A stretch of 64,000 nt of DNA from Citrifermentans bemidjiense Bem (lineage in GTDB: Bacteria; Desulfobacterota; Desulfuromonadia; Geobacterales; Geobacteraceae). The first letter of the stretch is position 1. Every line of letters begins with the position of its first letter. Under the pieces are notes generated by a model that saw only the letters and a program-made list of their open reading frames with translations, searched no databases and had not been told where the DNA came from. Both the position numbers and the translations under genes were made by a program. Shown here piece after piece: positions 19,071 to 46,824 of the stretch. The stretch lies in the NCBI RefSeq assembly GCF_000020725.1, contig NC_011146.1:1797501-1861500 (forward strand), in the 5' to 3' direction.

Positions 19071-19925
19071 ATGTGGGACTACACAGATAAAGTTAAAGAA
19101 CATTTCCTCAACCCCCGGAACGTGGGAGAGATTACCGATGCGGATGCGGTTGGCGAGGTGGGCAGCCTGGCCTGCGGCGACGCGCTTAAGCTGTTCATAA
19201 AGCTGGACGAGAAAAAAGAACGGATCGTCGATGCCAGGTTCCAGACCTTTGGTTGCGGCAGCGCCATCGCGTCTTCTTCCGCCCTCACCGAGATGGTGAA
19301 GGGGAAGACCCTGGACGAGGCGCTGCAGATCAGCAACCAGGAGATCGCCGATTTCCTTGGGGGGCTCCCCGAGGAGAAGATGCACTGCTCGGTCATGGGG
19401 CAGGAGGCGCTCGAGGTCGCCATCGCCAAATACCGCGGCGTCGAGGCGCCCAAGCACGGACACGACCACGTCGAGACCGAGGGTGAGATCGTCTGCAAGT
19501 GCTTCGGCCTGACAGATATCTTCCTCAAGAAGGTCATCTCCTCCAACAAACTGCACACCGCCGAACAGGTGACCCACTTCACCAAGGCGGGCGGCGCCTG
19601 CGGCGGCTGCATCCCGAAGATCAAGGAGCTGATCGCCGAGGTAATGGGCGAGGAGAAGAAGGCCGCGCCGGAGAGGCCGACGAAGCTCACCAACCTGAAG
19701 AAGATGCAGTTGATCCAGGAGACCCTGGAGAACGAGATCCGTCCCCAGCTTTGGGCCGACGGCGGCGACCTCGAACTGATCGACATCGACGGTGCCAACG
19801 TGCAGGTCGCCTTCCGCAAGGCATGCGCCGGCTGCGCCTCTTCCGGCAACACCGCGAAATTTGTCGAGCAGAAGCTGCGTGAGATGGTTTCTCCTGACAT
19901 CACCGTGCAGGAGGTTCAGGGATGA
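19071..19925 (+). CDS. nifU: Fe-S cluster scaffold NifU
   Basis: A 284-residue three-domain NifU. The IscU-type scaffold occupies about residues 1-125 with ligands Cys35, Cys62 and Cys106. A BFD-like [2Fe-2S] domain follows (Cys142, Cys144, Cys177, Cys180). The C-terminal NifU domain has the CAGC pair (Cys252, Cys255). It assembles Fe-S clusters from sulfur supplied by NifS, whose gene overlaps it by 4 bases. In Geobacter-like organisms this pair serves general Fe-S supply, consistent with the formate dehydrogenase genes nearby. Confidence 0.95.
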   Translation: MWDYTDKVKEHFLNPRNVGEITDADAVGEVGSLACGDALKLFIKLDEKKERIVDARFQTFGCGSAIASSSALTEMVKGKTLDEALQISNQEIADFLGGLPEEKMHCSVMGQEALEVAIAKYRGVEAPKHGHDHVETEGEIVCKCFGLTDIFLKKVISSNKLHTAEQVTHFTKAGGACGGCIPKIKELIAEVMGEEKKAAPERPTKLTNLKKMQLIQETLENEIRPQLWADGGDLELIDIDGANVQVAFRKACAGCASSGNTAKFVEQKLREMVSPDITVQEVQG

Positions 19926-21091
19926 AAGAGATCTATCTTGACAACAACGCCACCACCAGGGTGGACGAGCGGGTTTTCGAGGAGATGCGTCCCTATTTCT
20001 GCGAGCTGTACGGCAACCCGAGCTCAATGCACTTCTTCGGCGGTCAGGTGCAAAAGAAAGTGGACGAGGCACGCAGCCGCGTCGCCGCGCTTCTGGGTGC
20101 GCTCCCCGACGAGATCGTCTTCACCGCCTGCGGGACCGAGAGCGACAACGCCGCCATTCGTTCCGCGCTGGAGGTCTTCCCCGAGAAGCGCCACATCATA
20201 ACCAGCCGTGTCGAGCACCCCGCGGTGCTCACCCAGTGCCGCAACCTCACCAAGCGCGGTTACCGGGTCACCGAACTGAACGTGGACGGCAACGGGCAAC
20301 TCGACCTCAAGGAACTCGAGGCGGCGCTGGATGACGATACCGTCATCGTCTCCCTCATGTACGCCAACAACGAGACCGGCGTCATCTTCCCCATCGAGGA
20401 AGCCGCCAAGATGGTGAAGGCAAAGGGCGCGCTCTTCCACACCGACGCGGTTCAGGCCGTGGGCAAGATCCCGCTCAACATGGCTGAATCCGCCATCGAC
20501 CTGCTTTCCCTCTCCGGGCACAAGCTGCACGCCCCCAAAGGGGTAGGCGTTCTTTACGTGCGCCGCGGCACGCCGTTCCGTCCGCTTCTGGTCGGCGGGC
20601 ACCAGGAGCGCGGACGCAGGGCGGGGACCGAGAACACCGCCTCCATCATCGCCATGGGCAAGGCCTGCGAGCTTGCCCACCTGCACATGCCCGAGGAAGC
20701 GGGGCGCGTGCGCGAGATGCGCGACAGGCTGGAGCGCGAACTGACCGCGCTCATCCCCAACACCAGGATCAACGGCGGCGGCACCAACCGCCTCCCCAAC
20801 ACCCTTTCCATCGCCATGGAGTTCGTGGAAGGGGAGGGGATACTGCTGCTCCTCTCCGAGAAGGGAATCTGCGCCTCCTCCGGCAGTGCCTGCACCTCGG
20901 GCTCCCTCGAGCCGTCCCACGTGCTGCGCGCTATGGGCGTTCCCTTTACCTGCGCCCACGGCTCCATCCGCTTCTCGCTTTCCAGGTTTACCACCGACGC
21001 CGAGATCGATGCCGTGATCAAGGAACTCCCCCCGATCATCAGCCGCCTGCGCCAGATGTCGCCGTTTGGCAGGGAGTTCCTGAACAAGTAG
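19922..21091 (+). CDS. nifS: Cysteine desulfurase NifS
   Basis: A 389-residue PLP enzyme that takes sulfur from L-cysteine to give alanine and an enzyme persulfide. It opens with YLDNNATTRVDERV; PLP binds Lys201 in SGHKLHAPKG, and the persulfide Cys324 is in SSGSACTSG. It is coupled to nifU. A second homologous domain is fused to a molybdoenzyme at 38288-41707. Confidence 0.95.
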   Translation: MKEIYLDNNATTRVDERVFEEMRPYFCELYGNPSSMHFFGGQVQKKVDEARSRVAALLGALPDEIVFTACGTESDNAAIRSALEVFPEKRHIITSRVEHPAVLTQCRNLTKRGYRVTELNVDGNGQLDLKELEAALDDDTVIVSLMYANNETGVIFPIEEAAKMVKAKGALFHTDAVQAVGKIPLNMAESAIDLLSLSGHKLHAPKGVGVLYVRRGTPFRPLLVGGHQERGRRAGTENTASIIAMGKACELAHLHMPEEAGRVREMRDRLERELTALIPNTRINGGGTNRLPNTLSIAMEFVEGEGILLLLSEKGICASSGSACTSGSLEPSHVLRAMGVPFTCAHGSIRFSLSRFTTDAEIDAVIKELPPIISRLRQMSPFGREFLNK

Positions 21092-35372: not shown

Positions 35373-36551
35373 CTAACCCGCCTGCAAAAACTCCTCGGGG
35401 GCGAGGCTTGTCGCCAGCATCACCATGTTGATGTCCCGGTGCTCCTTCCAATGCTCGGTCCCCTTGTTCCGCTCCTCCCGCCAGAACCGCTCTATCTTCG
35501 GCACCATCGCCAGGTGTGGCGTAAGCGCCTCGATGCGTGGGGTGAGCTCGAAGAGCAGATCGGGGTCGTGATCCTCCTGGAACTCGACCACGAGCCTCGC
35601 CAGGTTCGCTACCCCCCTAAGCCCGATCGACAATCCCAGTTCGCGGAACGCCAGCCGGTAGCGCGCCGGAAGTTCCAGGAAACCGTCCCCCGCGCTCTCC
35701 AGGCTCGCCAGGCTGTCGTCCAGTACCTGCCGGAAGAGGCGCAGATGCTGAAAATCCCCTTTGATCACCAGCAGCTCCATCCAGTTGGCATCGCACAGTA
35801 ACCCCCCGATGCCTAAAGGGTCGTCGGTGGCCAAGCTCTTGCCGCGGCACATCGCCGCCAGTTCCCCGATCTCCTCTCCCAGGTCCGGCAGCCCGTCTAC
35901 GGCGAAGTCTCCCGCAAGCGACCGCAATTCGCTGTAGGTGACCAGGCCGTCCAGCGGGTCGTGCAGCCCGGCGGAACGGACCTGCGGGCGCTTCAGGTCG
36001 ATGCTCATCTTCCACTGCAGCGCAGGCGACCCCTCCGGCGTCGCGGCGTAGCGGAAAGCGCGGTGCGCGGTCCGGGCCAGTTCCATGCCCCACCTGAGGT
36101 AGGTGACGTCTCCGGCGACCCGGGTCATGCAGCTTAGCGCGTGCATCCACTTGGTCAGGTAGTGGTAATACTGCCCGTCGCGATCCCACTCCAGGCGCTC
36201 GTCTGCAGGCTCGTCCGGGGCGCGCTCGGGAAGCTTCTTCCCTATCCTCAGTCCCCCGATGGTTGGGTGTAGTTCTCCCTCCTGCTCGTCGAGACCGCTC
36301 AACCAGCCGCTCGCTTGGCCGTCGTCCCGGTGGCGCCCGAGGACGTGATGCACCTGGTCGACTAACTGCCGCGCCAGCTCCAGCCAGGTTTCGTCATGAG
36401 AGCGACGGTAAAGCTCCAGGAAGTTGCAGACGGCGAAGGCGTCGGTCCACAGGTAGCGCCGCGGCGCCCGGTCGGGGTCGGTAAGCCCGGTGCTCCCGGC
36501 GAAGTCGAGCATGATGTCGCCGACCAGCATGATGTTGTTCTCTTTGTCCAT
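35373..36551 (-). CDS. Hypothetical protein, possible alpha/alpha-toroid (six-hairpin) fold
   Basis: A 392-residue protein with no signal peptide or membrane segment. It is rich in aromatic-containing helices (RRYLWTDAFAVCNFLELYR, DGQYYHYLTKWMHALSCM, LRWGMELARTAHRAF), reminiscent of six-hairpin glycosidases or epimerases, but I cannot name the family. GGGAG precedes the ATG. It lies 15 bases downstream of the DinB-like gene on the same strand, so the two form an operon divergent from egtD. Confidence 0.65.
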   Translation of the reverse strand: MDKENNIMLVGDIMLDFAGSTGLTDPDRAPRRYLWTDAFAVCNFLELYRRSHDETWLELARQLVDQVHHVLGRHRDDGQASGWLSGLDEQEGELHPTIGGLRIGKKLPERAPDEPADERLEWDRDGQYYHYLTKWMHALSCMTRVAGDVTYLRWGMELARTAHRAFRYAATPEGSPALQWKMSIDLKRPQVRSAGLHDPLDGLVTYSELRSLAGDFAVDGLPDLGEEIGELAAMCRGKSLATDDPLGIGGLLCDANWMELLVIKGDFQHLRLFRQVLDDSLASLESAGDGFLELPARYRLAFRELGLSIGLRGVANLARLVVEFQEDHDPDLLFELTPRIEALTPHLAMVPKIERFWREERNKGTEHWKEHRDINMVMLATSLAPEEFLQAG

Positions 36552-36566: not shown

Positions 36567-37067
36567 TCAGCCGGTCAGGTACCTGTTGTCCGCGGGCCAC
36601 AGCCCCAGTACCTGCCGGATAATAGCGATCTCGCCGATGTGATAGGCGTTGTGGTCGGCCGCCAGCACGACCTCTCTCAAGATGTTGTAAGAGGGGGAGT
36701 GCGGCAGCGGAGCCAGAAGGTCGTTCCGCTCGTCCCTGACCAGTTCCTTTAGCGCTTCGAGGTCCGCCAGGAACCCGGCACAGCTTCTTTCCCACCCGGC
36801 AACGTCGGTTCTCCAACCCGCGGCCGGGCGGTAACCGTAGGGGTAGTCCGGCGAGACGTGCGCCGGGTTCCGGATGAACTCCAGGATGTCCCATTGGGCG
36901 ATGCGCAGGTGCTCCACGAAATGCCAGAGCGAGTAGGGCGTGTTTGGGGGCTTCCGGTTGATCGAATCCGGCGGCAGCCCGGCGAGCACCTCCTCGAAGC
37001 TGAAATGGGCGTTGCCCCCTTCCAGCAGGTCGAGGAGTTCCTTTCTCAGCGAACGGTCCTCTTTCAT
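36567..37067 (-). CDS. DinB-fold (YfiT-like) putative metal-dependent protein
   Basis: A 166-residue four-helix protein. ATG 37067 follows AAGGAGG at good spacing, better than an earlier in-frame start. Histidines in LWHFVEHLRIAQWDIL and in DHNAYHIGEIAIIRQ match the DinB metal triad. The superfamily includes thiol S-transferases, and a DinB domain forms the N-terminal part of EgtB and OvoA in thiohistidine synthesis. It diverges from egtD across a 155-base spacer, so a thiol-related role is worth considering, as inference. Confidence 0.78.
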   Translation of the reverse strand: MKEDRSLRKELLDLLEGGNAHFSFEEVLAGLPPDSINRKPPNTPYSLWHFVEHLRIAQWDILEFIRNPAHVSPDYPYGYRPAAGWRTDVAGWERSCAGFLADLEALKELVRDERNDLLAPLPHSPSYNILREVVLAADHNAYHIGEIAIIRQVLGLWPADNRYLTG

Positions 37068-37133
37068 GTGACCCCTCCTTGCCGGCCTCTGATTTTTCAC
37101 ACCCTAACTCTACTGGCCCGGGTTCATAAATGC

Positions 37134-37162: not shown

Positions 37163-37190
37163 TTGACGGTTATAATTAGCAGCTTATAAT
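37163..37190 (+). promoter_or_regulatory. Candidate sigma-70 promoter for egtD
   Basis: TTGACG (37163-37168), 16-base spacer, exact consensus TATAAT (37185-37190), with AAGGAGG between it and the ATG at 37223. Confidence 0.65.
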
Positions 37191-37222: not shown

Positions 37223-38287
37223 ATGGATACCTTTTTCGCCTCGCCCGAACCCCAAATCTGCCGCCAACTCAGTGAAGCGAGCCGAGGCCGAGGCCCTAGA
37301 ATCGTGCGGCCGTCGGCCGCTGCGGACCCGGTGCAGGATTTCGCGCGCTCGGCCGCGGCAGGGCTCGCGTCTCCGCCGCGCCGCTTGGAGAGCAGGTTCC
37401 TGTACGATGCGCAGGGGAGCATCCTCTTCGACCAGATCACCGCGCAGCCGGAATACTACCTTACCCGTACCGAGGCCTCGATCCTCGCGGCCAACGCCGC
37501 CCGCATCAGGGCCCTCACCGGACCGACGAACATAATGGAGCTTGGGGCCGGCAGCGCGGCGAAGACGGATAATCTTTTGAGAGCCTGGCTGGAGCGCTCC
37601 AAGGCGGTCTGCTATTTTCCGGTGGATGTGAGCCTGACCGCGCTCCTGGGGGCCTGCAAAAGCATCTCGGCGAGGTTTCCTGCTGCCCGCGTCATCGCGG
37701 TGAACAGCGAGTACGCTGAAGCGTTCCCGCTTCTTTCGCAGCTCTCCCCTGTGCTGGTGACCTTCCTGGGGAGCAGCATCGGCAACTTCAGCCGGCTCGA
37801 GATGACTAGCTTCTGCCTCGCCCTGGCGGCGTCGATGCGACCGGGCGACTTCTTACTCCTGGGCCTGGACCTGGTGAAGAGAAGTTCGGTCTTGGAGGCG
37901 GCCTACAACGACAGGGCTGGAGTAACGGAGCGTTTTACCCGCAACATCTTCGCCCGGATGAACCGCGAACTTGGCAGTGCCATAGACCTCGAGTCCATCG
38001 AGCATTCGGCGCGTTACCAGGCGGAGCTGGAGCAGATCGAGATCGACGCCTGTTTCACGAAGCGGCAGGCTTTCCTCCTTCAACCCCCGGGGAGGGCCAT
38101 TACCATAGCCGAAGGGGAATCGGTGCGGACCGAAATCTCCCGGAAGTTCCGGCTGGAGCAGGTGATCCCGGAGCTGAACCGCTGCGGCTTCGGCACCGAG
38201 CAGGTCTTCAGCGACGAGCGGCGCTGGTTTGCGCTCTTGTTGCTGCGCCGCTTGCCAAGGTATAGCGGCCAATCGGGGAGGTCATAG
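37223..38287 (+). CDS. egtD: L-histidine N-alpha-methyltransferase EgtD
   Basis: A 354-residue SAM-dependent enzyme predicted to trimethylate histidine to hercynine, the precursor of ergothioneine. Family signatures: LTRTEASIL at about 81-89, the SAM loop MELGAGSAAKT at 105-115, the PVDVS segment at 133-137 and FLGSSIGNF at 181-189. The stop codon directly abuts the ATG of the Mo/desulfurase fusion gene. No EgtB, EgtE or rhodanese-type EanB gene is visible nearby, so sulfur insertion must use something else. Confidence 0.9.
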   Translation: MDTFFASPEPQICRQLSEASRGRGPRIVRPSAAADPVQDFARSAAAGLASPPRRLESRFLYDAQGSILFDQITAQPEYYLTRTEASILAANAARIRALTGPTNIMELGAGSAAKTDNLLRAWLERSKAVCYFPVDVSLTALLGACKSISARFPAARVIAVNSEYAEAFPLLSQLSPVLVTFLGSSIGNFSRLEMTSFCLALAASMRPGDFLLLGLDLVKRSSVLEAAYNDRAGVTERFTRNIFARMNRELGSAIDLESIEHSARYQAELEQIEIDACFTKRQAFLLQPPGRAITIAEGESVRTEISRKFRLEQVIPELNRCGFGTEQVFSDERRWFALLLLRRLPRYSGQSGRS

Positions 38288-41200
38288 ATGTCGGAGCATA
38301 GCCGCGAGACCCGTAACGGCATGTGCGGCATCTGCCCGGCAGGCTGCCTGGTCACCGTGACCCTTGAACAGGGGAGGCTGGTGGCGGTGGAGCCCCAGGC
38401 TGGAAGCCCGATGGGTATCCTCTGCCGTATCGGGCGCCACTCCCCGCAGATCGTGCACGACCCGGACCGGCTCCTTTATCCGCTCAAGCGCATAGGCCCC
38501 AAGGGGGGGTACGACTTCGAGCGCATCACCTGGGACGAGGCCTTCGAGACCATCGTGACGCGGTTGAACGAGGTGAAGGCGCGCTACGGGGCGGAGGGGG
38601 CGGCGATCTACACCGGGCGCGGCAGCTTCGACATGGCCCTTTGCGACCTGTTCCAGCCGGCGGACGCCGCGGTTTCCTCAGCCTCCAACGTTCTCTTTCC
38701 CTTTGGGTCCCCAAACACGCTTGGTGTGGGCGCCCTCTGCTACGTTTCCTTCGCCATGATCGCCCCTCACGTCACCATGGGAGAGATGCTGATCACCATG
38801 GAGACCGACCTCGAACAGTCGGAACTGATCGTGATCTGGGGCGCCAACCCGGCTACCGATTCGCCTCCCCTGGCGCACCGCCAGATCCTGGCGGCAAGGG
38901 CGCGAGGGGCGCAGGTGGTCGCGATAGATCCGCGGCTTGGGGAGACCGCGCGGGAGGCGGGTGCTCAGTGGATCCCGATTCGTCCCGGAACCGACGGGGC
39001 GCTGGCGCTGGCCCTGATCGGCGTCCTGGTGGAAGAGGAGCTTTACGACGAGGCTTTTGCCCGCGACTGGACCGTCGGCTTCCCCGAACTCCGTACGCTG
39101 GTGCAGCACTTCCGTCCCGAAGCGGTGCAAGAGATTTCGGGAGTCCCGGCGGATAACATCAGGAACCTGGCGCGCCGCATCGCCTCGGTCCGGGGCGCGG
39201 CACCGGTCATGTACACGGGGCTTGAGTACTCCGATAGCGGGGTGCAGGCGATTCGCGCCGTCTTCACGCTCTTCGCGCTGGCCGGGCAGCTCGACGTCCC
39301 CGGGGGAGTGCTGTTCCGGATGAAAGAGAATATCTTCCCCCAGAACCGTTCCCGCCTGATTCGAAACCCGGATCTGAAGAAGGCGCTTGGGCGCGACCGT
39401 TTCCCGATCTACAGCGCCTACCGGGGCGAATCCCATGCCGCCGTGCTCCCGGAGGCCGTGCTGGAAGGAAAGCCTTATCCGGTGCGGGCGCTACTGGTGC
39501 TGGGAGGCTCCATCATCACCGCCTGGCCGGATCCGGATCTGTGGCGCCGGACCTTGTCCTCCCTCGACTTCATGGTCTCCATCAACCGCTACCACACGGC
39601 CGATTCGGCCTATGCCGACATCGTCCTCCCCGCCGCTACCTATTACGAGATCACCTCCTACATGAGGTACGGCCCGCTCTTCAAGATAAGGGAGCGGCTG
39701 GTCCTCCCTCAGGGGGAGGCGCGTAGCGACTTCCTGATCCTGGCGGAGTTGGCCCGGCGCCTGGGGTACGGCGAGCTGTACCCGCAAAGCGAGGAGGAGA
39801 TGCTCCGTTTCGCCCTTGAGGGGAGCGGCTTTTCCTTGGAAGAGGTGCGGGCGCAGGGGGGGGAAGCGCGGGTTGCTGCCGTGATGATGCAGTACAAGAA
39901 ATGGGAAAAGGGGCTGTTGCGTCCCGACGGGAAACCCGGTTTCAACACCCCCAGCGGCAAGTTCGAGATCGCCTCCTCCATCCTCGCGGAAAACGGCTAC
40001 GCGCCGCTGCCGGTCTACACCGAGCCTGGGGAGGGGCCGCTTGCCGACCCGCAGCTGGCACGTGAATACCCGCTGGTATTCAACTCCGGCGCGCGTACGA
40101 TGCACGATTTTCGCAGCCAGCACCACGGCGTGCGCGACCTGTCCGACCCGCTTCCCGAGCCGCCGGTCACCTTGAACCGGGAAGATGCGGCAGAGCTCGG
40201 GGTCGGGGAGGGGGAGCGGGTCTGGGTCGAGACCCCGAGGGGGCAGGCACTTTTTACAGCAAGGCTAACCAGCGGCATCGTGCGCGGGAGCATCGACGCC
40301 GCCATGGGAGGGGGAGGGCCGTTGGGTTCCGAGGCCTGGCAAAAGTGCAACGTGAACCAACTCACCGACCCCGGCCGCTACGATCCCATCTCCGGCTTCC
40401 CCGTCTACAAGACCCTTCTCTGTCGAGTGCGCAAGGCAGAGACTTTCGTTGCCGACTCCGCCAGTTCCAAGTCGTCCACCGGGTCCATTGAGTCCATCGG
40501 GTCCACCTTCACCGAAGGGCTAACCCCGGCCGTCGTTGCTTTGCGCCAGGTCTACCTGGACCACAACGCCACCACAGAGGTTCGCCCGGAGGTGCGGGAG
40601 GCGATGCTCCCTTACCTTGGCGGCGACTGGGGGAACCCTTCCAGCATCCACGGCAAGGGGAGCCGCGCCCGCTTTGCGCTGGAGGATGCCCGGCGCCAGG
40701 TCGCTCAAGCGCTCAACTGCACCGCCCGGCGCATCGTCTTCACCGGAGGGGGGTCCGAGGCGGACAACCTCGCCCTGCGCGGAGCGGCGCTGGCTGCAGA
40801 CGGCTCCAGGCGCCACCTGGTGACCAGCAGCATCGAGCACCCCGCCGTACTCGCCACCTGCCGCGCCCTCTCCCGCCAGGGGTACGAACTGAGCGTGTTG
40901 GACGTGGACCGGGAGGGGGTGGTGCAGCCGGAACAGCTGGAGCGGGTGATCCGCCGGGACACCCTGCTGGTCTCGGTGATGCTCGCCAACAACGAGACGG
41001 GGGCGCTTCAGCCCGTGCCCGAACTGGCGCGGATTGCACATCGGATGGGGGCGCTCTTTCACTGCGACGCGGTGCAGGCGCTGGGCAAGATGGAACTGGA
41101 CCTGGAGCAGTTGGGGGCGGATCTGGTCAGCCTCTCCTCCCACAAGGTCCACGGTCCCAAAGGGGTGGGTGCACTCTATATCGGTCGGGAGGTAAAACTG

Positions 41201-41707
41201 GAGCCGATCATCACCGGCGGAGGGCAGGAGCACGGGCTTCGGGCCGGGACCGAAAACGTTCCCGGGATCGTCGGTTTCGCCAAGGCAGTGGAGCTTTCGC
41301 AGGCGGGGCTCTTCGCCGGCGAGCCGGAGCGGCTGGCGCGGCTTCGCGACCGGCTGGAGCAGGGAATTCTCGGCATAGTACCCGGCGCGAGTAAAAACGG
41401 CCCGGAAAAGCGGCGCCTTTGCAACACGCTCAACATGCAGCTGCCGGGGATCCGCGGCGAGTCGCTGGTGTTGCTGTTAGATCGCCACGGGGTGGCGCTA
41501 TCGTCCGGCTCCGCCTGCAAGTCCGGAAACCCGGACCCTTCCCACGCGTTGCTTGCCATGGGGCTCACGCCGCAGCAGGCACACTGCTCCGTCCGTTTTT
41601 CCCTGGGACGGGCAAACGACGACGGGGAGATAGAGTACGTGCTGGATCGTCTGCGGGAGCTGTTGCGGGATACCGGCCAGGCGGTGCGTTTCGTAGCCTG
41701 CCGCTGA
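38288..41707 (+). CDS. Fusion of a cytoplasmic molybdopterin oxidoreductase and a NifS-like cysteine desulfurase
   Basis: A single 1139-residue frame. Residues 1 to about 715 form a DMSO-reductase-family domain: [4Fe-4S] ligands Cys13, Cys16, Cys20 and Cys46; a candidate Mo ligand Cys151 in SPNTLGVGALCYVS; cofactor segments VIWGANPATDSP and IDPRLGETA; and a C-terminal barrel (LVFNSGARTMHDFRSQHHG, VTLNREDAAELGV). There is no twin-arginine or Sec signal, so it is cytoplasmic. Residues about 729-741 are a Ser/Gly linker. From about 754 a full desulfurase follows (YLDHNATTEVRPEV), with PLP Lys953 in SSHKVHGPKG and persulfide Cys1077 in SSGSACKSG. Directly after egtD with zero spacing, it most likely inserts sulfur into hercynine anaerobically. 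I vaguely recall reports of Mo-dependent ergothioneine synthesis but cannot confirm. A polysulfide-type reductase is the alternative. Confidence 0.85.
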   Translation: MSEHSRETRNGMCGICPAGCLVTVTLEQGRLVAVEPQAGSPMGILCRIGRHSPQIVHDPDRLLYPLKRIGPKGGYDFERITWDEAFETIVTRLNEVKARYGAEGAAIYTGRGSFDMALCDLFQPADAAVSSASNVLFPFGSPNTLGVGALCYVSFAMIAPHVTMGEMLITMETDLEQSELIVIWGANPATDSPPLAHRQILAARARGAQVVAIDPRLGETAREAGAQWIPIRPGTDGALALALIGVLVEEELYDEAFARDWTVGFPELRTLVQHFRPEAVQEISGVPADNIRNLARRIASVRGAAPVMYTGLEYSDSGVQAIRAVFTLFALAGQLDVPGGVLFRMKENIFPQNRSRLIRNPDLKKALGRDRFPIYSAYRGESHAAVLPEAVLEGKPYPVRALLVLGGSIITAWPDPDLWRRTLSSLDFMVSINRYHTADSAYADIVLPAATYYEITSYMRYGPLFKIRERLVLPQGEARSDFLILAELARRLGYGELYPQSEEEMLRFALEGSGFSLEEVRAQGGEARVAAVMMQYKKWEKGLLRPDGKPGFNTPSGKFEIASSILAENGYAPLPVYTEPGEGPLADPQLAREYPLVFNSGARTMHDFRSQHHGVRDLSDPLPEPPVTLNREDAAELGVGEGERVWVETPRGQALFTARLTSGIVRGSIDAAMGGGGPLGSEAWQKCNVNQLTDPGRYDPISGFPVYKTLLCRVRKAETFVADSASSKSSTGSIESIGSTFTEGLTPAVVALRQVYLDHNATTEVRPEVREAMLPYLGGDWGNPSSIHGKGSRARFALEDARRQVAQALNCTARRIVFTGGGSEADNLALRGAALAADGSRRHLVTSSIEHPAVLATCRALSRQGYELSVLDVDREGVVQPEQLERVIRRDTLLVSVMLANNETGALQPVPELARIAHRMGALFHCDAVQALGKMELDLEQLGADLVSLSSHKVHGPKGVGALYIGREVKLEPIITGGGQEHGLRAGTENVPGIVGFAKAVELSQAGLFAGEPERLARLRDRLEQGILGIVPGASKNGPEKRRLCNTLNMQLPGIRGESLVLLLDRHGVALSSGSACKSGNPDPSHALLAMGLTPQQAHCSVRFSLGRANDDGEIEYVLDRLRELLRDTGQAVRFVACR
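40474..40509 (+). repeat. Four in-frame copies of the 9-bp GTCCAT-type repeat encoding the interdomain linker
   Basis: Units GTCCACCGG, GTCCATTGA, GTCCATCGG and GTCCACCTT run without a break. Each encodes about (G/E)-S-(I/T). The same 9-bp pattern is intergenic at 43152-43180 and 47046-47085. Confidence 0.85.
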
Positions 41708-43255: not shown

Positions 43256-43687
43256 ATGAAACGAGCCAAGAAAAAAATCTTCGCGGACTTCATCGCTCAG
43301 CGCGGACTCAAGACGACCAAGCAGCGGGACATCATCCTCGACAGCTTCCTGTCCAGCGACAGGCACCTGAGCATCGAGGACTTGTATCTGAAGCTCAGAG
43401 CCAAGCACCCGAACATCGGCTACGCCACGGTGTACCGGACTCTGAAGCTCTTCGCCGAGGCAGGTCTCGCCCGCGAGATGCAGTTCGGCGACGGCCAGAC
43501 CCGCTACGAGCACGTGGGGGAGGGCGAGCACCACGATCACTTGGTCTGCACCCGGTGCGGCCACATCGAGGAGTTCGAGAACGAGACCATCGAGAAACTG
43601 CAGGACGAGGTGGCCAACAGCCGGGGCTTCCTGATCGAGCGCCACCGCCTCGAACTCTACGGCCTTTGCTCCGGCTGTAGAAAGTAA
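43256..43687 (+). CDS. fur: Fur-family metal-dependent repressor
   Basis: A 143-residue regulator with an N-terminal winged helix (LKTTKQRDIILDSFL, ATVYRTLKLFAEAGLA) and a C-terminal metal-binding dimerisation domain with HHDHLVCTRCG and a second Cys pair CSGC near the end. The Cys pairs form the structural zinc site. Fur-family members respond to Fe, Zn, Mn or peroxide. The adjoining feo genes point to iron, though they have their own spacer. Confidence 0.9.
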   Translation: MKRAKKKIFADFIAQRGLKTTKQRDIILDSFLSSDRHLSIEDLYLKLRAKHPNIGYATVYRTLKLFAEAGLAREMQFGDGQTRYEHVGEGEHHDHLVCTRCGHIEEFENETIEKLQDEVANSRGFLIERHRLELYGLCSGCRK

Positions 43688-43775
43688 AGGGCTGGCGGGT
43701 TCCTCATTGGTTTAGGCTGCCCACCGGTTCTCTGCGGTCCCGCACCAAAAGCTATAAAAAATTTTTCCCGCCATC

Positions 43776-43792
43776 ATGAAAGTGATATTCAT
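43776..43792 (+). promoter_or_regulatory. Candidate Fur operator before feoB
   Basis: The inverted repeat ATGAA-N7-TTCAT with the AT-rich core AGTGATA lies 38 bases before the feoB start and resembles Fur-type sites of Geobacter-like genomes. Judged by eye. Confidence 0.4.
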
Positions 43793-43829
43793 CGACTTTT
43801 AATTGGCATTCAAACGTTAAAGAGGGGTA

Positions 43830-45830
43830 GTGGAAAACATGTCATTTTTCAAGAAGAAGGGTTCCTGCCACGAAGCCGCAACCGTTGCCGCCAGCGGCGC
43901 CAAGAAGGTGGCGCTGGTGGGGAATCCCAACGTCGGAAAGAGCGTTCTCTTCAATGCCCTCACGGGCGCCTACGTCACCGTATCCAACTATCCCGGCACC
44001 TCGGTTGAGGTTTCCCGCGGCAGCACGGCGATCAATGGGGAAGAATTCGAGATCATCGACACACCAGGCATGTACTCCATACTCCCGATCACAGAGGAGG
44101 AGCGGGTGGCCCGCGAGATCCTCTTGACCGAGCGCCCGCACCTCGTGCTCCACGTCCTTGACGCCCGCAACCTGGAGCGGATGCTCCCGATGACGCTGCA
44201 GCTCATCGAGGCGGAGCTTCCCGTGGTGCTGGTGGTGAACATCATGGACGAGGCCGCGCGCATGGGGCTGGAGATCGACATCCCGCTTTTGTCCCAGCGG
44301 CTCGGCATCCCGGTCATCGGCGCCGCTACCGCTAAGAAGATCGGTGTTCCCGAGATCAAATCCGCCATTGCCGGCAGCTCCTCCGGCGCCGTCCCCCCCT
44401 TCACCTACTCGCGTCTGATGGAGGGTGACATCGCCGAGATCTGCCAGAGCCTCAGGGGCGAGTACATCCTCTCCAAGAAGGCGATCGCGCTTCTGCTTTT
44501 GCAGGACGACACCGAGGTAGCCGAATTGGTACGGGAAACCGAGGGCGTATGGTTTCCTGCCCTCCAGACGGTGGTTCGTGACAAGCGCTTCGAGCGCCGC
44601 GAGTCGTTCCATCTCGACCTCTCCATGGAGCGCAAGGCGATAGTGAAGAAGATCCTGGACGGCGCCTTCAAGATCCCGGAGAAGCGCGTGGTCACGCTCG
44701 CCGAGCGATTCTCACGCTGGACTGTGCGCCCGACTACCGGCATCCCGCTGCTGCTCATCGTGCTTTACTTCGGCCTCTACCAGTTCGTCGGCGTCTTCGG
44801 CGCCGGGACGCTGGTCGATTTCCTCGAAGGGAAGGGATTCGAGCAGTACTTCAACCCCTGGATCACCGAGGTCGTTAAACTCAACGTCCCGTGGGAGATG
44901 ATCCAGGAACTCCTGGTGGGCGAGTACGGCATCATCACCCTGGGCTTCCGCTACGCCGTCGGCATCATCCTCCCCATCGTCGCCACCTTCTTCCTCTTCT
45001 TCTCCGTGCTCGAGGACAGCGGCTATTTTCCGCGGCTTGCGCTCCTGGTGGACCGGGTGTTCAAGACCATGGGACTCACCGGCCGGGCGGTGATACCGAT
45101 GGTGTTAGGCTTTGGCTGCGACACCATGGCGACCATGGTGACGAGGACCCTGGAGACGGTTCGCGAGCGGGTCATCGCCACGGTGCTCTTGGCGCTCGCC
45201 ATACCCTGTTCGGCGCAGTTGGGGGTCATCATGTCGCTTCTCTCCCAGACTCCCGGAGCGCTTTTGGCCTGGGGCGTCTGCCTGACCCTGATATTCCTGC
45301 TGGTCGGCCTTCTGGCCGCCAAGGTGCTCCCGGGGGAGACACCGATGTTCTACATGGAGATCCCCCCGATGCGGTTGCCGCAGTTCGGCAACGTGCTGAC
45401 CAAGACCTACACCAGGATGCAGTGGTACTTCATGGAGATCCTGCCGCTGTTCATCCTCGCCTCCGTGCTTTTGTGGCTCGGTAAGATCACCCATTTCTTC
45501 GAGAAGATGATCGAGGCGATGACACCGGTCATGGCCGCCTTGGGGCTCCCCAAGGAGTCGGCCGTCGCTTTCATCTTCGGGTTCTTCCGGCGCGATTACG
45601 GCGCGGCAGGGCTTTACGACCTGCAGGCCAAGGGGCTTTTGAACCCCCGGCAACTCACCGTGGCGGCGGTTACCCTCACCCTGTTCATCCCCTGCGTGGC
45701 GCAGTTTCTGATCATGAAGAAGGAGCGCGGCTGGAATGTGGCCATCGCCATCGGGCTCTTCGTCTCCGTCTTCGCCTTCGGCAGCGGGTGGCTCTTGAAC
45801 CGTTTCCTGCTTGCCACGCAATTGCTGTAA
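43830..45830 (+). CDS. feoB: Ferrous iron transporter FeoB
   Basis: A 666-residue inner-membrane Fe(II) importer. The G domain has G1 GNPNVGKS (31-38), G3 DTPG and a G4-like NIMD. A helical spacer domain follows. The membrane part contains the two Gate regions, including IPMVLGFGCDT and the later LPLFILASVL. GTG at 43830 has GAGG five bases upstream. Genes for a small zinc ribbon and a FeoA-DtxR fusion follow in the same direction. Confidence 0.93.
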   Translation: MENMSFFKKKGSCHEAATVAASGAKKVALVGNPNVGKSVLFNALTGAYVTVSNYPGTSVEVSRGSTAINGEEFEIIDTPGMYSILPITEEERVAREILLTERPHLVLHVLDARNLERMLPMTLQLIEAELPVVLVVNIMDEAARMGLEIDIPLLSQRLGIPVIGAATAKKIGVPEIKSAIAGSSSGAVPPFTYSRLMEGDIAEICQSLRGEYILSKKAIALLLLQDDTEVAELVRETEGVWFPALQTVVRDKRFERRESFHLDLSMERKAIVKKILDGAFKIPEKRVVTLAERFSRWTVRPTTGIPLLLIVLYFGLYQFVGVFGAGTLVDFLEGKGFEQYFNPWITEVVKLNVPWEMIQELLVGEYGIITLGFRYAVGIILPIVATFFLFFSVLEDSGYFPRLALLVDRVFKTMGLTGRAVIPMVLGFGCDTMATMVTRTLETVRERVIATVLLALAIPCSAQLGVIMSLLSQTPGALLAWGVCLTLIFLLVGLLAAKVLPGETPMFYMEIPPMRLPQFGNVLTKTYTRMQWYFMEILPLFILASVLLWLGKITHFFEKMIEAMTPVMAALGLPKESAVAFIFGFFRRDYGAAGLYDLQAKGLLNPRQLTVAAVTLTLFIPCVAQFLIMKKERGWNVAIAIGLFVSVFAFGSGWLLNRFLLATQLL

Positions 45831-45856
45831 ACCAGTTGACGACGAAAACCTTTGTG

Positions 45857-45892
45857 AACCAATTGACAATGGACAATTGACAATTGACAACT
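45857..45892. repeat. 7-bp unit repeat (ACAATTG family)
   Basis: Tandem ACAATTG-type units between feoB and the small zinc-ribbon gene, the same family as 15951-15985. Confidence 0.65.
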
Positions 45893-45961
45893 AAAATCCA
45901 ATGACTGACTCAAATGCACCCTAAAGTGCGCTGTGACAGCTACCAAAGAGAGTCCGAATTT

Positions 45962-46147
45962 ATGCGGTGCGGGTTTTGCGGGTACGAGTTCGAGGAGAAT
46001 GAGGGCAACGTCGGATGCAAGAACTGCCCTATGTCAAGCGGCTGCAAGATGGTGAAGTGCCCCAGGTGCAACTATGAGAATCCCCCGGAGCCAGCGCTGG
46101 TCAAGACACTCAAGAAGGTATTCTCCAAAAAGAAAACAACAAAATGA
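45962..46147 (+). CDS. Small zinc-ribbon/Cys-rich protein of the feo operon
   Basis: A 61-residue protein starting MRCGFCGYEF. Cysteine pairs CGFC, CKNC, GCKMVKCPRC form two ribbon-like knuckles, followed by a basic tail (KKVFSKKKTTK). An upstream in-frame ATG at 45914 would add 16 unconserved-looking residues; I prefer 45962, which has AGAGAG upstream. Small Cys-rich proteins beside feoB (FeoC and similar) are known; this could be such a regulator or metal-handling partner. Confidence 0.75.
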   Translation: MRCGFCGYEFEENEGNVGCKNCPMSSGCKMVKCPRCNYENPPEPALVKTLKKVFSKKKTTK

Positions 46148-46179
46148 CTGAGAGTTTATATTCGATAAAGGAGCGGTTT

Positions 46180-46824
46180 ATGAAGCTGACTGACAAGGCT
46201 GAAGAGATACTGGAGGCGTTGTGGATCGAGTCGGAGGAAAAAGGAACCGGCTACGCAGAACTGGACCGAATGGAAATAGACGCCTCGGATCCCGCCTATC
46301 AAGAACTTGCCTCGCAGGCCCTGGTGGAGATCAAGGGAGGACGCATCTACTTCCGCCCCGAAGGGCGGGATGAGGGGCGCAACACAATCCGGCGCCACCG
46401 CCTCGCCGAAAGGCTGATGATGGACGTGCTCAACATCCGCGGCGAGAGCGGGGACATGAAGGCGTGCCAGTTCGAGCACCTTTTGAACGAGGGGGTGGAC
46501 ACCAAGGTCTGCACCATGCTGAACCACCCGGTGACCTGCCCGCACGGCAAGCCGATACCTCCCGGGGAGTGCTGCGAGGAGGCGCGTAAGACCGGTGATC
46601 TCGGCGTGGTGCCGCTCACCGAGCTCAAACCCGGCGACGAGGGGGACATAGCCTACATCCAGACCGAGGACAGCAAGAAGATGCAGAAACTGATGGCCAT
46701 GGGGGTGCTCCCCGGAAACCGCATCTCGCTTTTACAGGCTTTCCCGTCCTACATCTTCAGGGTCGGTTTTTCCGAATTCGCCATCGACTCGGCCATGGCC
46801 CGCGAAATTTTCGTCAGACGATAA
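46180..46824 (+). CDS. DtxR-like regulator fused to a FeoA domain
   Basis: A 214-residue protein; ATG 46180 has AAGGAG at ideal spacing. Residues about 60-140 match the DtxR/MntR metal-binding and dimerisation region (RRHRLAERLMMDVL, the CXXH-like CQFEHLL, HPVTCPHGKPIP). Residues about 145-214 are a FeoA/SH3-like domain (LTELKPGDEGDI, MGVLPGNRISLL). The N-terminal part (1-55) is a divergent helix-turn-helix. It probably senses iron and controls or assists FeoB. Confidence 0.85.
   Translation: MKLTDKAEEILEALWIESEEKGTGYAELDRMEIDASDPAYQELASQALVEIKGGRIYFRPEGRDEGRNTIRRHRLAERLMMDVLNIRGESGDMKACQFEHLLNEGVDTKVCTMLNHPVTCPHGKPIPPGECCEEARKTGDLGVVPLTELKPGDEGDIAYIQTEDSKKMQKLMAMGVLPGNRISLLQAFPSYIFRVGFSEFAIDSAMAREIFVRR

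Follow-up and report, generated by a model that had tools for sequence, protein, structure and literature searches.

In 2022, experiments by Beliaeva and Seebeck established the metallopterin-dependent ergothioneine synthase (MES; PMC9516567). There, MES is described as an N-terminal acetylene hydratase-related module joined to a C-terminal cysteine desulfurase, and a histidine methyltransferase is co-encoded with it in 55 genomes. Four MES homologues made ergothioneine in Escherichia coli. Mutating C153, K952, C1074 or C1135 nearly abolished production, and mutating C1097 halved it. Two other enzymes, the O2-dependent EgtB and the rhodanese EanB, share their substrate and net product with MES (PMC9516567). 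The main text of the paper contains neither the word Geobacter nor the word DinB.

We analyzed a 64,000-nucleotide stretch of the genome of Citrifermentans bemidjiense Bem, referred to here as the window. The original prediction for this DNA was an egtD gene followed without a gap by an unbroken two-domain frame of 1139 residues. Coordinates and profile matches bear this out: the TAG stop codon of egtD directly abuts the ATG of the long frame, with a gap of zero. The features of the locus are collected in the table, together with an ovothiol synthase encoded elsewhere in the genome.

Features of the egtD-MES locus and related genes. Positions are those of the window unless a locus or contig is given.
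Feature	Position	Strand	Remarks
NifS-type cysteine desulfurase, separate	19919-21040	+	above its cut-off
392-aa protein	35373-36551	-	beside the DinB gene
DinB_2 protein	36567..37100	-	divergent from egtD, 122 bases away; PF12867 3.9e-08
Promoter-like site TTGACG-16-TATAAT	37163..37190	+	32 bases 5' of egtD start; consensus scan, 11/12 matches
egtD, histidine N-alpha-methyltransferase	37223..38287	+	354 aa, ATG start; PF10017, TIGR03438, 4uy7
Fusion protein, single open frame	38288-41707	+	1139 residues; DMSO-reductase-family Mo/W domain and NifS-type cysteine desulfurase
MES N-terminal module, residues ~1-718	38288..40441	+	Fe-S cysteines 13/16/20/46, candidate metal ligand Cys151, bis-MGD fold
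Probable linker, residues 719-750	40442..40537	+	predicted pLDDT <50
MES C-terminal NifS-type cysteine desulfurase, residues 751-1139	40538..41707	+	PF00266; PLP Lys953, Cys1077, Cys1100, tail Cys1138
Iron block	43256-46824	+	Fur-type regulator, FeoB, iron-dependent repressor and FeoA domain protein
OvoA (ovothiol synthase)	L067:913-3030; own genome ~C1:66.3-68.4 kb

The egtD product matched PF10017 at 6e-91 in a Pfam profile search, far above the cut-off, and the solved EgtD chain 4uy7 at 1.5e-58 in a structure-sequence search. Against the NCBIfam model TIGR03438, it scored 289.6 bits (2.5e-86), 1.3 bits short of the cut-off of 290.9. The protein was the sole PF10017 match in the genome (1 contig, 4,615,150 bases). 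Residues Y79, N188 and E304, which we take to align with substrate-binding residues of M. smegmatis EgtD, are conserved in 95% or more of 40 aligned rows. S306, presumably the counterpart of a substrate-binding serine in the same enzyme, was absent from the list of residues kept at 95% in these rows. The promoter-like site upstream was the one site returned by a consensus scan over 5.3 kb, for which 0.5 was expected in shuffled sequences; alone it is no proof of function.

The fusion protein matched PF00384 at 6.3e-39, PF01568 at 9e-17 and PF00266 at 1.9e-77, E-values that exclude chance. The best solved Mo/W relative of the N-terminal module was acetylene hydratase 2e7z (9.3e-71, residues 11-657), and the closest solved relatives of the C-terminal half were cysteine desulfurases. 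The desulfurase domain scored 469.5 bits against TIGR03402, for which the cut-off is 530.75. Among the best 25 of the 50 NCBIfam models matching the fusion, none was a model for MES. The nearest named relative, from Citrifermentans bremense, was 97% identical. The same genome also encodes a separate NifS-type cysteine desulfurase, which lies in the window.

The residues singled out in the published enzyme have counterparts in the window protein. Specifically, C14/17/21/48, C153, K952, C1074, C1097 and C1135 correspond here to C13/16/20/46, C151, K953, C1077, C1100 and C1138, a mapping based on the numbers printed in PMC9516567 and not on an alignment to the Caldithrix protein. The numbering is offset by -1 or -2 N-terminally, by +1 at the lysine and by +3 at the end. 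No protein numbered like the Caldithrix enzyme was found: none of those longer than 1100 aa from the protein searches had at least 8 of the 9 residues, and in alignment A2, which has 44 rows, the best row reached 6 of 9. The original prediction had placed C13, C16, C20, C46, C151, K953 and C1077 exactly where we found them; it did not name C1100 and C1138.

To describe the conservation of these residues, we used an alignment of fusion homologues with 60 rows; these represent 58 loci, as two of the loci are split into two frames each. Cysteine occupied positions 13/16/20/46 in 55 of the 60 rows and position 151 in 56, the remaining rows lacking that stretch or being misaligned there. Lys953 was lysine in 54 rows, and cysteine was found in 53 rows at each of positions 1077 and 1138. 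Two misaligned fragment cells, L060 at C151 and L066 at C1077, were removed from these counts. The essential residues were substituted in 0 of the 60 rows, missing cells being gaps in cut or split frames. C1100, the residue whose published counterpart could be mutated with half the production retained, was replaced in 2 of 60.

An EgtD frame lay on the fetched stretch in 40 of the 58 MES loci from named genomes. The paired egtD was within ~0.3 kb of MES in 39 of these; in L055 it was 1.2 kb off and on the opposite strand. Some of the 18 loci with no egtD on the stretch end at a contig border, and 12 of these 18 genomes have PF10017 elsewhere, one only as a 51-residue piece. A PF10017 protein was not found in 6 of the 58 genomes, all six of whose records are titled MAG. 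Within the window's family, MES was found at an E-value of 1e-200 or better in 14 of 48 genomes. Among 13 further family loci, egtD was on the stretch in 12; the other, L101, is a shorter stretch. The original prediction had proposed such a count and had named homologues lying mostly away from egtD as an outcome that would speak against it; with pairing at these frequencies, that objection does not refute it. One MES, 75% identical to that of the window, occurred in a MAG labelled Polaromonas (L011), an aerobic genus, and may reflect a binning error.

Based on these comparisons, egtD and the fusion very probably constitute an operon of two genes through which ergothioneine is made anaerobically, the fusion being an MES. 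Features by which an MES is recognized are present here: a single two-module chain, Fe-S and metal-ligand cysteines, a PLP lysine, a persulfide cysteine, a C-terminal cysteine and an adjacent egtD. We infer that both genes are carried on a single transcript, that the window copy is active and that its product is ergothioneine. The oxygen-independent transfer of sulfur from cysteine to hercynine by a fusion of a Mo/Fe-S module and a desulfurase, as originally proposed for this locus, agrees with what PMC9516567 shows for MES homologues in E. coli. The same source bears out a remark, offered with the proposal, on the existence of Mo-dependent ergothioneine enzymes; the pathway is thus not novel. 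Pathway, fusion and mechanism are already known and, being in print, are known as a kind.

In the proposed mechanism, EgtD would methylate histidine three times to yield hercynine (trimethylhistidine). The PLP-dependent desulfurase domain would convert cysteine to alanine and store its sulfur on Cys1077 in persulfide form, and Cys1138 in the tail would hand this sulfur to the Mo or W centre, whose ligands would be Cys151 and two pyranopterins. The imidazole of hercynine would then attack the terminal sulfido ligand, releasing ergothioneine, and the metal would be restored by the next persulfide with no involvement of O2. This order of chemical steps is that of the published proposal, where every turnover includes re-oxidation of the metal by a protein persulfide, which would make an external electron acceptor unnecessary (PMC9516567). 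In the predicted model of the fusion, the Cys1077 loop and the tail at residues 1131-1139, which includes Cys1138, had pLDDT <50. The linker at residues 719-750, predicted to be disordered, together with this loop and tail, would suit a mobile sulfur carrier; low pLDDT is no proof of motion. The metal-site loop at residues 149-151 was likewise of low confidence in the model, which is free of cofactors.

A different role for the fusion would be the reduction of polysulfide or thiosulfate, or the formation of another thio-product, fed by the desulfurase and only incidentally adjacent to egtD. Indeed, the N-terminal module matched the solved thiosulfate reductase 2vpw at 1.9e-60 and the thiosulfate reductase PhsA model with 250.5 bits, the latter far below the cut-off of 694. 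We nevertheless consider such a role very improbable: among solved structures acetylene hydratase is closer, as it is for the published enzyme, and four homologues of like build yield ergothioneine in E. coli (PMC9516567). Moreover, the pairing of egtD with the fusion recurs in records titled as many phyla.

The genome was also inspected for other enzymes that could thiolate hercynine. EgtB, originally predicted to be missing, was not found in the whole genome, the sole PF03781 match being an OvoA. This OvoA is complete, scoring 707.5 bits against TIGR04344 and 347.3 bits against TIGR04345, above both OvoA cut-offs. It scored 173 bits against the EgtB model, for which the cut-off is 360, and was also far under the SenA cut-off. 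OvoA is an oxygen-dependent enzyme. It was found above the cut-off in 26 of the 48 family genomes. Of the 14 that hold MES, 9 have such an OvoA and 5 do not, and MES therefore occurs without it. Judging from these gene contents, the oxygen-independent ergothioneine route would often coexist with OvoA in these bacteria. No EanB candidate was seen among the frames of L070, L071 and L075, part of the ten rhodanese places in the genome. The 230-aa rhodanese protein of L070 matched other rhodanese proteins among solved structures; the L071 frame resembles an exported sulfurtransferase, and the L075 frame a protein of the MnmH type.

The full OvoA raises the alternative that hercynine is thiolated by this oxygen-dependent enzyme and that MES is a relic or serves another purpose. 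Consistent with this, one same-genus genome with OvoA keeps egtD intact and has a broken MES. Nonetheless, the alternative appears highly unlikely: the MES frame of the window is open with all named residues present, MES genomes devoid of OvoA above the cut-off exist within the family, and the score of OvoA falls far under the EgtB cut-off. With MES as the preferred assignment, the published pathway is now located in a complete Geobacter-group genome alongside the oxygen-dependent ovothiol enzyme. The presence of both in one such genome provides a place to ask what role ergothioneine has without oxygen.

It is scarcely credible that the desulfurase domain also takes selenocysteine, making the natural product partly or wholly selenoneine: selenocysteine lyase models matched the domain weakly (SclA, 84.9 bits with a cut-off of 525) and the solved selenocysteine lyase 3gzc did so at 1.4e-55, but cysteine desulfurases were its strongest matches, and the published MES yields ergothioneine and requires its cysteine desulfurase (PMC9516567).

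Taking egtD and MES as an ergothioneine operon, its divergent neighbour may be of functional interest. The encoded protein combines a DinB_2 profile with a four-helix fold and conserved histidines of the DinB/S-transferase-like superfamily; in close homologues the start codon lies 11 codons further in, giving 166 aa. Assignment to this superfamily is suggested by Pfam, by Foldseek probabilities near 1 and by a second alignment. Foldseek returned no match at an E-value of 0.001 or better, and a sequence search of solved structures yielded a single match, alanine racemase, at 0.24. Homologues of the DinB protein number 1664 in a large protein collection, far beyond those tied to MES. Its gene lies next to one for a 392-aa protein, also found near this place in several same-genus genomes, that matched neither a Pfam nor an NCBIfam model at an E-value of 0.001.

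Within the family, 12 of the 14 MES genomes gave a DinB match spanning most of the protein, G030 and G038 being the two without one; the 34 remaining genomes gave none, three of them holding short remnants. All 12 matches were on the MES contig, within ~3 kb of MES. In G050, the DinB match is split into two frames, and MES is split there too. In G024, the match contains one stop; in L056, taken as the same locus, this stop lies upstream of the likely start. Across the 58 loci, tblastn found DinB in only 7, six from the Geobacter group and one titled Desulfomonile (L033). By tblastn there was no DinB match at two loci where the flanks of MES are complete, those of Pelotalea (L012) and Geomonas anaerohicana (L041). 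When flanking genes were clustered out to 5 kb from MES, no neighbour was common to more than 6 of the 58 loci; this result is weak because in GC-rich sequence the gene caller favours frames that are long but spurious, and its clusters do not contain the DinB gene detected by tblastn.

In G040 (L104:5276-6907), a family genome of the same genus, egtD is intact with 353 residues, MES ends after ~105 residues with its frame shifted, and a DinB remnant of ~37 residues is left; two separate breaks thus flank a preserved egtD. In G029 and G046, there is no match to egtD or MES, and just the 3' end of DinB remains. Joint loss of DinB and MES by one deletion fits the latter two genomes and not G040. 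The damage to both genes beside an intact egtD is as expected if the DinB protein is useless without ergothioneine. Two genomes that lack egtD and MES at this locus retain the iron block found downstream of MES in the window.

Related DinB proteins include the bacillithiol and mycothiol S-transferases (PMC10950700). By analogy, the DinB protein could tentatively be viewed as an ergothioneine-dependent S-transferase or isomerase, which would make ergothioneine a working co-substrate and not only an antioxidant. Linkage and shared ancestry could account for much of the DinB-MES association, and we therefore regard this reading as possible but doubtful. The link between DinB and MES may be new. 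In PMC9874932, the single passage on ergothioneine refers to it just as a common thiol. The neighbour is a concrete candidate for an ergothioneine-using protein.

Among the known systems, EgtB and EanB are proteins unrelated to MES. NifS and IscS desulfurases have the PLP lysine and persulfide cysteine in common with the C-terminal domain of the fusion; unlike them, this domain is fused to a Mo/W module and falls under the NifS equivalog cut-off. The tungsten enzyme acetylene hydratase (2e7z) is akin to residues 11-657 of the N-terminal module, whereas it has no desulfurase domain and catalyzes another reaction. The MES of Caldithrix abyssi resembles the window protein in domain order, 4Fe-4S cysteines, cysteine metal ligand, PLP lysine, desulfurase cysteine, C-terminal cysteine and co-encoded histidine methyltransferase. 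The window protein differs in its length of 1139 residues, in a residue numbering shifted by -2 to +3, and in that its genome also encodes OvoA.
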